Shown here piece after piece: positions 34,778-39,934 of a stretch of 64,000 nucleotides of DNA. Both the position numbers and the translations under genes were made by a program. The notes beneath the pieces were generated by a model. It ran no database searches and was not told the origin of the DNA. It saw only the letters and a list, made by a program, of their open reading frames with translations. Source of the stretch: Bacteroidota bacterium (GTDB lineage Bacteria; Bacteroidota; Bacteroidia; UBA7662; JAIXUI01); NCBI GenBank assembly GCA_027484125.1, contig JAIXUI010000009.1:39738-103737 (forward strand), given 5' to 3'. How positions within the stretch are numbered: position 1 is the first letter of the stretch; each line of letters opens with the position of its first letter.

Positions 34778-35995
34778 ATGAGTTCTAAAAAAGAAAACTG
34801 GCTTCTTCTTACCCTCGCCCTTTTACAATTTACCAACATCGTTGACTTCATGATCATCATGCCCTTAGGGAAGATGCTCATGCGTACACTACAGATTAAT
34901 ACCCAAGAATTCGGACTTATTGTTTCGAGTTACACTTTTTCGGCAGGCATTTCTGGATTTTTAGCCATGTTTTATATAGACTGGTTCGATAGGAAGGCAG
35001 TGCTAAGAAACATTTACACCGGATTTTTAATCGGTACCCTATTATGTGGACTTGCCAACAACTATGAAATGTTGCTTGCTGCTCGCATACTTACAGGGGC
35101 ATTTGGTGGCGTGCTGGGCGCATTAAGTTTGTCGATTGTAAGCGATGTAATTCCTTTAGAGCGGAGGGCATCCGCAATGGGTAAGGTGATGGCAGCTTTT
35201 TCAGCAGCATCGGTGCTTGGCGTTCCGATGGGTATTTTTCTGGCCAATTACTGGGACTGGCACTTTCCATTTTTCTTTCTTGCCGCTTTAGGGCTTCCGG
35301 TTTGGATTTTAATTGTGAAAAATATCCCCAATCTTACTGGTCACTTAACCGAACGAAAAAATAAACCCCTTCAAACACTGCGAGGAATATTTGAGGTAAG
35401 GAATCATTGGAAAGCGCTTTTCTTTGGATTTATCCTCATGTTAGGACATTTTTCTATTATTCCATTTATCAGTCCTTACATGGTTTCCAATGTGGGATTT
35501 TCTGAAAAACAGCTCACTTGGATTTACTTCGTTGGTGGACTGCTCACTTTGTTCACCTCGCCTTTAGTAGGCAAATTAGCGGATAAGTATGGCCGTTTTC
35601 AGATGTATGCGGTGTTTGCGGCGATATGTTGTTTGCCTATTTTCTTGATTACTAATCTTGGCCCAACGCCCATTTGGCAAGCATTAATCGTGAGTGGACT
35701 CTTTTTTATTGCAACCGGAGGGAGAATGGTGCCCATGCAGGCCATGGTTTCAGCTGCGGTAAATCCGAAAATTAGGGGAAGTTTTATGACCTTGAACGCT
35801 TCTGTACAGCAGTTAACAGCAGGCTTAGCCTCACTTATCGCCAGTCAGGTGATATCAGAAAAAGTAGTAGATGGGCATGTTTATCTTGTTCATTATGATT
35901 GGGTTGGCTATGGAGCTATAATCTTTAGCTTATTGGGAATTGGAGTAGCAAGTCAATTGAAAACAGTTCCTCAAACTATCGTGCAAGTAGAATAA
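34778..35995 (+). CDS. MFS transporter (AraJ/drug-efflux-like)
   Basis: LLLTLALLQFTNIVDFMIIMPLGKMLMRTLQI, RRASAMGKVMAAFSAASVLGVPMGIFL, DKYGRFQMY; about 12 TM. Confidence 0.88.
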   Translation: MSSKKENWLLLTLALLQFTNIVDFMIIMPLGKMLMRTLQINTQEFGLIVSSYTFSAGISGFLAMFYIDWFDRKAVLRNIYTGFLIGTLLCGLANNYEMLLAARILTGAFGGVLGALSLSIVSDVIPLERRASAMGKVMAAFSAASVLGVPMGIFLANYWDWHFPFFFLAALGLPVWILIVKNIPNLTGHLTERKNKPLQTLRGIFEVRNHWKALFFGFILMLGHFSIIPFISPYMVSNVGFSEKQLTWIYFVGGLLTLFTSPLVGKLADKYGRFQMYAVFAAICCLPIFLITNLGPTPIWQALIVSGLFFIATGGRMVPMQAMVSAAVNPKIRGSFMTLNASVQQLTAGLASLIASQVISEKVVDGHVYLVHYDWVGYGAIIFSLLGIGVASQLKTVPQTIVQVE

Positions 35996-36023
35996 AAAAG
36001 GCCCGCATTCGCGAGCCTTTCAG
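35996..36023. terminator. Imperfect hairpin terminator between convergent genes
   Basis: aaaaaggcccgcattcgcgagcctttc; GGC(c)CGC attc GCG(a)GCC. Confidence 0.6.
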
Positions 36024-36815
36024 TTAGTCGTTGGTAGTATTTCCTCGACTTATTTTTTTTACTAAGCTCCGGCCATTGGCTGAAACTACAAGGAACACCG
36101 TTCCCTTGATTCTCCTTCCTAAATCAATTGCATTGTTGAACAATCCGATGTAGCGAGTGTGAGATTGTGAATAAATTTCTTTTCCTTCTTGACTTAACAC
36201 TTTCACTACGAGGTTTACAGGTTCGAAAACTTCAAACGTAAGTTTCAGTTTGTTTTTCGAACTTGAGCCACTTACCATTAAGTCTTCTAGGTATTCTTCA
36301 GCATTCCCGGGTTTAACTCCAAGCTTATTCAGTTCTTCTTTGTCTGCATCAGTAACTTGAATGCTAAAGTTTCGGTTTCCATTCATCGCCCAACCGTGAT
36401 GGAATACCTTCATTTCAGGAAGGTCGAATTGAAATTCTTCTAAACTTCTTAAAGCTTTTGTAACCTCATCAGCGCTTTGATCTGGACCTAAAAACATGAT
36501 TTTTTTCTTTTTCTTAAGGCTTCCACCTTCTTCGTCACAATCTTGATTAAGGAATAATTCAATCATTTGATCACCTTGAACAACTTGCTCTGGTTGTTTT
36601 TTCTTCTTGGTGTAAAGCTTAACTGCTGCTTGAGCTTCATCTAGGTTATTGAAACTGGTATCAAGCACACTACTTAAACCATTTTCCTCATGAATAATAT
36701 TCATCTGGATTTTAGTTTCATTTCGAGGACTTACTCTTGAGTCAGAAGATTGCCCGAAAGCCAGCACCGGTGCAAACATGCACCCGACCGCCATCAATTT
36801 TAGACATGTACGCAT
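36024..36815 (-). CDS. Hypothetical secreted protein with C-terminal beta-sandwich-like tail
   Basis: Signal peptide MRTCLKLMAVGCMFAPVLAFGQ; C-term LVVKVLSQEGKEIYSQSHTRYIGLFNNAIDLGRRIKGTVFLVVSANGRSLVKKI resembles type A sorting domains loosely. Confidence 0.6.
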   Translation of the reverse strand: MRTCLKLMAVGCMFAPVLAFGQSSDSRVSPRNETKIQMNIIHEENGLSSVLDTSFNNLDEAQAAVKLYTKKKKQPEQVVQGDQMIELFLNQDCDEEGGSLKKKKKIMFLGPDQSADEVTKALRSLEEFQFDLPEMKVFHHGWAMNGNRNFSIQVTDADKEELNKLGVKPGNAEEYLEDLMVSGSSSKNKLKLTFEVFEPVNLVVKVLSQEGKEIYSQSHTRYIGLFNNAIDLGRRIKGTVFLVVSANGRSLVKKISRGNTTND

Positions 36816-36834
36816 TGTTTTGATTTTGTAAAGC

Positions 36835-36842
36835 CAAAACTA
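36835..36842 (-). promoter_or_regulatory. Putative -7 element TAGTTTTG for the secreted-protein gene
   Basis: Exact TAnnTTTG on minus strand, 19 nt before start codon at 36815. Confidence 0.45.
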
Positions 36843-36864
36843 CCGTAGCATTGAAAATCAGAGA

Positions 36865-36901
36865 GTTAACGGTCGGTTAAAGGGCGTTAACGAAAGGTTA
36901 A
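36865..36901. promoter_or_regulatory. Four GTTAA direct repeats, candidate response-regulator operator
   Basis: GTTAA at 36865, 36876, 36886, 36897; spacing 11, 10, 11 bp. Confidence 0.6.
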
Positions 36902-36928
36902 TCGGTTTTCTAACATTTCATTTATGAA

Positions 36929-36936
36929 TAATTTTG
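36929..36936 (+). promoter_or_regulatory. Putative -7 element TAATTTTG for the histidine kinase gene
   Basis: Exact TAnnTTTG, 4 nt before ATG 36941; TTTT at 36906-36909 is 19 nt upstream. Confidence 0.5.
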
Positions 36937-36940
36937 AAGC

Positions 36941-38998
36941 ATGAACAAAAGGCTGTTGTACGGAATTATCACGCTGTTGGCCATAACCATGGTTGGAATA
37001 TTGGGATTCCAGTATTTCTGGTTGAAGAATACCATCAGGTTGGAAACAGAATCCTTTGACAGAAAAGTTTATGACATCGCACAGCGGGTGAATCAGCAAT
37101 TGGAGGAAAAAGAAGCCCGTGATATGGTGAAAAAGGATATAACCAGGCTTATTGCTACTTCTGAGCCCGGTAGCCATTCAATTCCGGTTGAAGCTAAACC
37201 CTTGACTCCAAAAAAACTTGTGCCTAAAAGCGAGGTTCAGCCAGCTCCAAAAAACACTGCGACGGTTAGCCAAGAAAAGCCTTCCAGGCCAGGCAAAAAG
37301 GTTGAAATTATGTTGCCTTTTTCCGGTACAAACGCTCAAAAGCATATCAATCAAGCTGACTACTTTACGTTTCCGGAATTTCAAGATTTTGAGAGTTTTG
37401 AAAGACTAAAAGAATTTGAGCCATTATTGCAACTTGGTTTGGCTAATCAATTTGAAATCAATCAGTTATTAAGAGATTTTTTTCCTGAAATTATGATTGA
37501 AGACAGTCAAATTGTGGTTATGAAGAACAAAGGCAACTGGCCTCAAATGATACCATCGCCTCTTTATAAACGGCTTGATTCTTTGAAGACAAAAAGAATT
37601 AAAGCAGTCAACCAACAGGTAGCAAGATTTTTAAAGCCTGATTTTATTCAAGATTGCACAGCGCGTTGCGTTGATCAGGAAGTTAAAGGCCAGGAACAAT
37701 CTGGCTACAGAATGACTTTTGCAGGTCCTGTTAAAGCTCCTCAACCGAGTAAATCAACTAATCTAGTTGTTGCTGATAAAGCGGAAGAGCAAGAGGAGTT
37801 TGTTCAGAGAAAACTGAGCATAAAACAGTCAGAAATTGAAAGAAAAGCAGCTGAAAAAGCAATGATTAAAGCCAAAACGCTTGATCTCGAAATGAAAAAA
37901 GTGATGGTCAATTATTTCTCAGGTCAAAAAAACATCAAGGAAAGAATTGATTCAGCTGAAATTCAAATGATGTTGGCAAGCGAACTAAAAAAGTCAGGGA
38001 TTAATTTGCCGTTCGATTTTGCGGTTTTTCGCGGACATCAACCTGTTTACAGAACTGCCGGCCTGCTGAATAAAGGCCAAACAGAGAAAGAATTTACTGC
38101 TAAAGTTTACACTGCGGGCTTGTTTACCAATGATGTGGTAGATTCTAAACTCAGGCTTTCATTGGTATTTCCAGGGAAAGATGAATACATCATACAAAAT
38201 TTGTATGCCTTGGTTTTAGTTTCTGGAGCCTTAAGCTTGCTAATATTGACAGCATTTTTTGCTTCAGCTTGGGCTTTATTACGTCAAAAGAAAGTGTCTG
38301 ACATCAAGTCTGATTTCATTAACAACATGACGCATGAGTTTAAAACACCCATTGCTACCATTTCACTCGCAACAGATGCGCTGAAAAATCCGAAAGTTTA
38401 TCAAGATCAAAATCGAATACAGTACTATTCCGGCATTATCCGCGAAGAAAATAAACGCATGAATAAGCAAGTGGAAAAAGTCTTGCAAATGGCTCAATTA
38501 GAGCGAAAAGATTTGCAATTGAATAAAGAGCCGCTTTGCATTCACGATGTGATCCAACAAGCAGTTTCCATGCTAAGTCTTCAAGTAGAAGACCGTGGCG
38601 GAAAAATAGAAACCTACTTTTCAGCGGAAGACTGCGTTACCTCAGCTGATGAGGTTCATATGGCCAACGTATTTTTTAATTTAATAGATAATGCAAATAA
38701 ATACACCGATACCCAACCTGAGATAAAGCTCTATACGTATAACCATCAAGACCGAATTATCATTGAAGTTACGGACAACGGAAAAGGCATGAAACCAGAA
38801 ACCATTCGCCACTGTTTCGATAAATTCTACAGGGAATCTACCGGAAACAGGCATGATGTAAAAGGCTTCGGACTTGGACTTAGTTATGTCAAAGAAATTG
38901 TTGACATGCACTTGGGTGATATTAAGGTTAAAAGTGAACTCAACAAAGGAACAACGTTCGAAATAAGTCTACCGTTATGCAAAGCAAACAAGAATTAA
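36941..38998 (+). CDS. Sensor histidine kinase (RprX-like)
   Basis: N-term TM, long extracytoplasmic region, second TM, H-box FINNMTHEFKTPIATISLA, NLIDNANKYTD, VTDNGKGM, GFGLGLSYVKEIV. Confidence 0.9.
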   Translation: MNKRLLYGIITLLAITMVGILGFQYFWLKNTIRLETESFDRKVYDIAQRVNQQLEEKEARDMVKKDITRLIATSEPGSHSIPVEAKPLTPKKLVPKSEVQPAPKNTATVSQEKPSRPGKKVEIMLPFSGTNAQKHINQADYFTFPEFQDFESFERLKEFEPLLQLGLANQFEINQLLRDFFPEIMIEDSQIVVMKNKGNWPQMIPSPLYKRLDSLKTKRIKAVNQQVARFLKPDFIQDCTARCVDQEVKGQEQSGYRMTFAGPVKAPQPSKSTNLVVADKAEEQEEFVQRKLSIKQSEIERKAAEKAMIKAKTLDLEMKKVMVNYFSGQKNIKERIDSAEIQMMLASELKKSGINLPFDFAVFRGHQPVYRTAGLLNKGQTEKEFTAKVYTAGLFTNDVVDSKLRLSLVFPGKDEYIIQNLYALVLVSGALSLLILTAFFASAWALLRQKKVSDIKSDFINNMTHEFKTPIATISLATDALKNPKVYQDQNRIQYYSGIIREENKRMNKQVEKVLQMAQLERKDLQLNKEPLCIHDVIQQAVSMLSLQVEDRGGKIETYFSAEDCVTSADEVHMANVFFNLIDNANKYTDTQPEIKLYTYNHQDRIIIEVTDNGKGMKPETIRHCFDKFYRESTGNRHDVKGFGLGLSYVKEIVDMHLGDIKVKSELNKGTTFEISLPLCKANKN

Positions 38999-39720
38999 TG
39001 GAAACCGAGGTGCGCAGTAAAGTGCTGTCTGTACTCTTGGTAGAGGATGATCAGAATTTTGGTCGGGTCCTCAGAGACTACCTCGAATTGAATGACTTTA
39101 CCGTTACTCTTGCTCGTGATGGCATTGAAGGCCTCGCTTGGTTTCGGAAAGCTTCATTCGATTTGTGCTTGTTAGATGTGATGATGCCTAAGCTTGATGG
39201 TTTTGCATTAGCTAGAGAAATTCGAAAGGTAAATCCTGAAATGCCGATGCTTTTCCTGACTGCAAAAAATCAGAAAGCGGATATTTTGGAGGGTTTCCGC
39301 CTCGGAGCTGACGATTACATCACCAAACCGTTCGACTCGGAAGTGTTGCTGGCTAAAGTTAGAGCGATTGTTAATCGTAAACTATCGCTTGAAAGCCAGG
39401 AAGAAAATGAGTTTGTAGTGGGTAAGTTGAAGTTCAATTTCAAACTGCGAACCATTGTGAACACTGAAAATGGAAATGCACAGAAGTTGTCTCCCAAAGA
39501 AGCGGAACTGCTGAAAATGCTTTGTCAGCATAAAAATGACGTGCTAACTAGAGAAAAAGCACTCAAAACCATCTGGAAAGAGGACTCTTATTTTACCGCG
39601 AGAAGTATGGATGTTTTCATAGTTAAACTTAGAAAGTATTTAAAAGAGGACCCAAGCTTAACCATCCAAAACCTTCACCGTCATGGCTTTCAACTTAGTG
39701 AGCATGCGGTAGTCGCTTAA
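38998..39720 (+). CDS. OmpR-family response regulator (RprY-like)
   Basis: VLLVEDDQNFGRVLRDYL, LLDVMMPKLDGFALAREI, FLTAKNQKADILEGFRLGADDYITKPF; C-terminal winged helix KTIWKEDSYFTARSMDVFIVKLRKYLKEDP; TAATG stop/start with kinase. Confidence 0.92.
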   Translation: METEVRSKVLSVLLVEDDQNFGRVLRDYLELNDFTVTLARDGIEGLAWFRKASFDLCLLDVMMPKLDGFALAREIRKVNPEMPMLFLTAKNQKADILEGFRLGADDYITKPFDSEVLLAKVRAIVNRKLSLESQEENEFVVGKLKFNFKLRTIVNTENGNAQKLSPKEAELLKMLCQHKNDVLTREKALKTIWKEDSYFTARSMDVFIVKLRKYLKEDPSLTIQNLHRHGFQLSEHAVVA

Positions 39721-39741: not shown

Positions 39742-39770
39742 AAAAAAGGCCGGATTTCCGGCCTTTTTTG
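39742..39770. terminator. Bidirectional intrinsic terminator
   Basis: AAAAAAGGCCGG-attt-CCGGCCTTTTTT. Confidence 0.88.
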
Positions 39771-39934
39771 TTTACTGCATCCTTAACATCAATGATAGAA
39801 TGTGTGAGAAACCTTGTTAAAGGCTATTGATTTCCAACCGTAAATCATTGGTTTGTTTCACTGTTTGAAGCAAGTTGGACTTACTTAGCATATGAAGAAT
39901 AGAAGCATGGTGGTTGAAAGCCTCAAACCTAGTG

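Follow-up and report, generated by a model that had tools for sequence, protein, structure and literature searches.

Direct repeats spaced by one helical turn, lying between two genes that are read away from each other, raise the question of which protein binds them and which of the two genes that protein would control. We examined such a region in the genome of a Bacteroidota bacterium, within a stretch of 64,000 nucleotides that we call the window. The original prediction was that four GTTAA repeats form an autoregulatory operator for the OmpR-family regulator of the adjacent two-component operon, and that this operator also controls a divergent gene for a secreted protein, so that the three genes would act as one envelope-sensing unit. 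The features of the locus, with the basis for each in brackets, are as follows:

36024..36815, minus strand: divergent secreted protein, 263 aa (hydrophobic N-terminus, HMM membership, homologues' tails, tail model)
36830, minus strand: divergent transcript predicted to begin here, with a leader of 15 nt (from the Flavobacterium psychrophilum TAnnTTTG rule)
36835..36842, minus strand: divergent -7 box TAGTTTTG, 22 bp from the first GTTAA (sequence, conserved spacing)
36865..36901, plus strand: putative operator, four GTTAA half-sites (sequence, genome uniqueness, conservation at orthologous operons)
36929..36936, plus strand: kinase-facing -7 box TAATTTTG, 27 bp past the array (sequence, conserved spacing)
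36941, plus strand: kinase mRNA predicted to begin with the A of its ATG, without a leader (from the same F. psychrophilum rule)
36941..38998, plus strand: sensor histidine kinase, 685 aa (HisKA, HATPase_c; hydropathy)
38977..39720, plus strand: response regulator of the OmpR/PhoB family, RprY-like and presumed to bind the array (Response_reg, Trans_reg_C, tree)
39743..39772, plus strand: terminator-like hairpin (GGCCGGATTTCCGGCC, T run) ending the kinase-regulator operon (read from the sequence)

The response regulator gene has an alternative ATG at 38998. Terminator-like hairpins at 35993-36022 and 39743-39772 lie at the outer ends of the secreted gene and of the kinase-regulator operon, and would set the three-gene unit apart.

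Position and uniqueness of the GTTAA array

Read from the sequence, the GTTAA repeats start at 36865, 36876, 36886 and 36897, in steps of 11, 10 and 11 bp; these positions and the two exact TAnnTTTG boxes had been predicted correctly to the base. The pair GTTAA-N5/6-GTTAA occurs three times in the 64-kb window, each time inside the array (0.56 occurrences expected from shuffles). A genome scan, proposed together with the original prediction, found the exact GTTAA triple once in the whole 3.33 Mb genome. With up to three mismatches allowed, the four-site pattern matched the window array (both strands read) and one other place only, a degenerate match upstream of a paralogous kinase-regulator pair. 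About 7e-5 exact four-site arrays are expected from the base composition of the genome. The array had also been placed just upstream of both -33 regions. This is right for the kinase side, where the array ends about 5 bp before the expected position of the -33 element, but not for the secreted-protein side, where the first GTTAA itself overlaps that position.

Conservation of the array and geometry of the two promoters

For 55 related kinase-regulator pairs, we compared the sequences that lie upstream. Of these, 36 contain GTTAA chains at steps of 9-12 bp, while the same regions gave no chain on the opposite strand, none at steps of 5-8 bp and three at steps of 13-16 bp, and no more than one was seen for any of the 29 other permutations of GTTAA. 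An in-phase exact GTTAA pair was not found in the remaining 19 of the 55, which include some RprY-like lineages, and the design is therefore not universal. When scored for the four-site array, 20 relatives ranked above every value of the reversed-sequence control. Across 389 Bacteroidia genomes, we counted 99 exact triples, that of the window among them (35 in the reversed control). Of the 98 triple arrays outside the window, 51 immediately precede the genes of an RprXY-like kinase and its regulator, and the fourth site is present in 48 of the 51. Arrays lie near the regulator in Flavobacterium and Winogradskyella species, among others, and a perfect one was found in a metagenome-assembled genome labelled Chlorobi. 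The idea of an operator thus survived the comparison with orthologous operons, a failure of conservation being one of the outcomes that had been named as speaking against it.

Beyond the repeats, a nearly base-exact layout was found again in about fifty distantly related genomes of the class Bacteroidia, in the conserved order TAnnTTTG, 22 bp, GTTAA-N6-GTTAA-N5-GTTAA-N5/6-GTTAA, 27/28 bp, TAnnTTTG and kinase start. In 44 of 49 arrays, a set that includes the window, 27 or 28 bp separate the fourth GTTAA from the kinase -7 box. On the other side, a -7 box matching at all six bases stands exactly 22 bp from the first GTTAA in 40 of 48 arrays, and a scan of offsets from 5 to 69 in the same 48 arrays returned only two exact boxes elsewhere. 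The best divergent box is at 22 bp in the window and in all 26 loci where a secreted gene was recognised, and both boxes are in their fixed places, with at least five of six bases matching, in 41 of 48 arrays. No base conservation was seen at the expected -33 position on either side across the conserved arrays. Judged from this geometry, the layout is that of a promoter whose activator would stand in for the -33 element. Such an arrangement is known from the pho box of PhoB and similar class II operators of the OmpR/PhoB family, in which head-to-tail repeats abut or replace the -35 element. The window array shares the head-to-tail direct repeats and differs in its half-site and in serving, as a single array, two opposite promoters at 22 and 27/28 bp.

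The TAnnTTTG box of F. psychrophilum occupies positions -12 to -5 (PMC9723704), so that the kinase mRNA is predicted to start at the ATG. The ATG of many orthologous kinases is 4-10 nt past the -7 box, and a leaderless or nearly leaderless kinase mRNA (36929-36943 in the window) is predicted across many families. Leaderless mRNAs make up only 5.5% of the mapped mRNAs of F. psychrophilum (PMC9723704).

The adjacent regulator as the presumed binder

The kinase carries HisKA and HATPase_c domains, and hydropathy places transmembrane segments at residues 5-23 and 423-441 around an extracytoplasmic domain of about 400 aa. The regulator belongs to the OmpR/PhoB family (PF00072, 106 bits; PF00486, 60.8 bits). 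It had been described as part of an RprXY-like operon. It is indeed RprY-like but is not RprY itself, scoring 276 bits against the RprY equivalog NF051850 (curated cut-off 370). It probably belongs to a sister clade of canonical RprY, as it falls in a separate clade of a tree of related regulators other than the RprY proteins of Bacteroides and Porphyromonas gingivalis themselves. In this tree of 109 regulators, the third step of the array (10 or 11 bp) needs a single change, compared with a mean of 21 changes when the step labels are shuffled (none of 500 shuffles as low as one). The branch separating step 10 from step 11 has moderate support (76/93), and one change suffices in all 200 bootstrap trees. 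The window regulator is in a clade of 27 rows (100/98) with step 11, and the neighbouring clades have step 10. Operator spacing varies together with the regulator next to it, and this is the best computational evidence that the cognate regulator binds the array.

We therefore read the array as the operator of the adjacent OmpR-family regulator within a geometry-locked bidirectional promoter, with a probability of roughly 0.8. The predicted autoregulatory operator that also controls the divergent gene is supported by conservation, by the fixed distances to the -7 boxes, by spacing that tracks the regulator tree and by the linkage of the secreted family to the array, whether or not the regulator genes are adjacent. 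Phosphorylated regulator dimers would bind the four half-sites head-to-tail on one face of the helix and recruit RNA polymerase to both -7 boxes, replacing the missing -33 elements. The kinase-regulator operon would be turned up by positive autoregulation through a near-leaderless mRNA, and the divergent secreted gene would be turned up from the shared array. The secreted protein would most likely act in the envelope or at the cell surface, either as an effector or by feeding back on the kinase in the way that CpxP does on CpxA. We infer that the regulator binds the array, that it activates rather than represses, and that the secreted protein has a feedback role.

The regulator could instead bind the array as a repressor, in negative autoregulation that keeps both promoters off until a signal inactivates it. 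P. gingivalis RprY, which binds its own promoter, has been proposed as a negative regulator (PMC3646045), and some relatives have an extra GTTAA after the array and before the kinase -7 box. However, a spacing that varies by only about 1 bp on either side and the lack of -33 elements would be expected if the regulator were a class II activator, and repression needs neither; we consider repression unlikely. The fifth GTTAA lies about two turns past the fourth, just before the kinase -7 box (loci L231, L233, L237, L242, L249 and others); it is present in part of the clade of the window and absent in the window, and could be a second, repressing site. As for RprX/RprY of Bacteroides and Porphyromonas more generally, the window system has a regulator of the same superfamily, which putatively binds its own promoter as the P. 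gingivalis protein does, and it differs in the score below the RprY cut-off, the separate clade and the third step of 11 bp in place of the 10 bp of the neighbouring clades. No RprY operator motif was found in the literature searched.

The array could also belong to another regulator, such as one of the RprY-like paralogues (C156, C148), its position next to this operon being incidental. The genome encodes several RprY-like regulators, and the second four-site match, a degenerate GTTAA array at 17638-17674 of C148 in the window genome (G000), is upstream of one such paralogous pair (L185/L125); cross-talk is therefore possible. Against a different binder stand the segregation of the third-step spacing with the phylogeny of the adjacent regulator and the many families in which arrays adjoin the regulator operon, and we regard it as quite improbable. 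Paralogous regulators of this genome share the box, and one or several of them could be the binder. The gene divergent from the C148 pair encodes a DUF1573-like secreted protein and not a member of the secreted family of the window. Chance, conceivable for so short a motif in an AT-rich intergenic region, has a vanishingly small probability for an array that is unique in its genome, expected about 7e-5 times and conserved across the class, and is refuted by the conservation data. An iteron-like or otherwise unrelated repeat was ruled out because the array is locked to the promoters and to their orientation.

The divergent secreted protein, a putative wider regulon and the parallel with Cpx

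The divergent gene encodes a protein of 263 aa with a signal peptide, a short N-terminal 'NG...DTT/SF' domain and a C-terminal beta-sandwich. Searched against Pfam and NCBIfam, it gave nothing above cut-off. Its single-sequence structure is poor overall (mean pLDDT 53.8), with only the tail usable (pLDDT about 80), and the modelled tail has weak matches in the PDB; in this model, the beta-sandwich looks like a degenerate sorting tail of the type IX secretion system (T9SS). The T9SS tail (PF18962/TIGR04183) is present in the three homologues tested, and the tail of the window protein is not recognised by PF18962. With 81 matches to the sorting-tail family in its genome, the organism probably uses type IX secretion.

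Used as a query, the window protein retrieved distant homologues, mostly adjoining arrays. We built two HMMs of the N-terminal domain (motif like V-x-I-x-K-x-x-NG-x4-5-DTTF), seeded from divergent genes, and ran them on all ORFs of the fetched loci. Each gave 15 hits, and all 30 are divergent from a kinase-regulator operon or an array; as the seeds were themselves divergent genes, the informative part is the absence of hits among the other ORFs and the gain of further divergent genes. The two HMMs match each other with 91.8% probability. The divergent gene represents a fast-evolving secreted family and, as had been proposed, forms part of the unit. At three loci (L241, L311 and L320), the secreted gene keeps the array and the 22-bp promoter with no kinase-regulator pair adjacent, and would therefore be a target in its own right.

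The composite GTTAA-N5/6-GTTAA-N27/28-TAnnTTTG was found in 99 of 194 genomes, with eight hits in all for the reversed control. Among 30 composite loci examined, 21 have an RprX-type kinase downstream, and at others the element is followed by HtrA-like proteases and DUF1573-like secreted proteins. Four-site arrays are also upstream of HtrA/DegP-type proteases in two further genomes, and a domain scan identified one array-linked HtrA/DegP-type protein as a Do-family protease. Because array promoters precede HtrA/DegP-type proteases, envelope stress is the likely theme of the regulon. HtrA/DegP-like proteases with the same GTTAA promoter (L259, L260, L337 and L338) come from two different families of the class.

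In the window genome, single GTTAA pairs lie near a PspC-domain gene, a gene for a GIN-like secreted protein and an S41 peptidase gene (L113, L120 and L124), and are possible weak targets. The fixed -7 spacing is absent at the PspC and GIN-like pairs, the two checked by eye, and for this reason we do not claim them as part of a wider regulon.

In Escherichia coli, the cpxRA operon is divergent from the gene of the secreted protein CpxP, with which it shares a control region, and CpxP is a feedback partner of the kinase CpxA. The regulator CpxR binds the box GTAAA-N5/6-GTAAA and activates cpxP and degP (PMC9600279). Both systems combine an OmpR-family regulator with direct repeats of a pentamer at helical-turn spacing and with a secreted-protein gene divergent from a two-component operon with a shared control region, an arrangement that is conserved here; a DegP-type protease is in the regulon as well, here in relatives only. 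They differ in the half-site (GTTAA here, GTAAA in E. coli, in the same spacing class), in the secreted partner, which is unrelated to CpxP by Pfam, and in the TAnnTTTG promoters of Bacteroidota, the four sites and the fixed two-way geometry. Membership in Cpx is ruled out by the family cut-offs, the window regulator scoring 111.6 against the CpxR model (cut-off 341) and the kinase 93.6 against the CpxA model (cut-off 486). By analogy, the Bacteroidota circuit resembles the Cpx plan built from different parts, with no homology in detail.

Some members of the divergent secreted family carry a T9SS sorting tail. A bolder reading, which we regard as rather doubtful, is a class-wide Cpx-like envelope stress circuit in which the secreted family is a feedback ligand of the kinase that reports on outer-membrane export: when type IX secretion or envelope assembly fails, the protein would accumulate in the periplasm and alter the activity of the kinase.

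In the open-access literature, we found no earlier description of the layout, of GTTAA repeats as an operator or of the secreted partner. Taken together, the analysis offers a precise and testable operator and promoter grammar for a large and poorly studied group of Bacteroidota two-component systems, with a consensus that can be searched in any Bacteroidota genome, gut and oral species included. It predicts members of the regulon, namely the secreted family and HtrA/DegP proteases, ties an unannotated secreted family to its putative controller, and sets beside cpxP-cpxRA a clear parallel from a phylum whose promoters differ.
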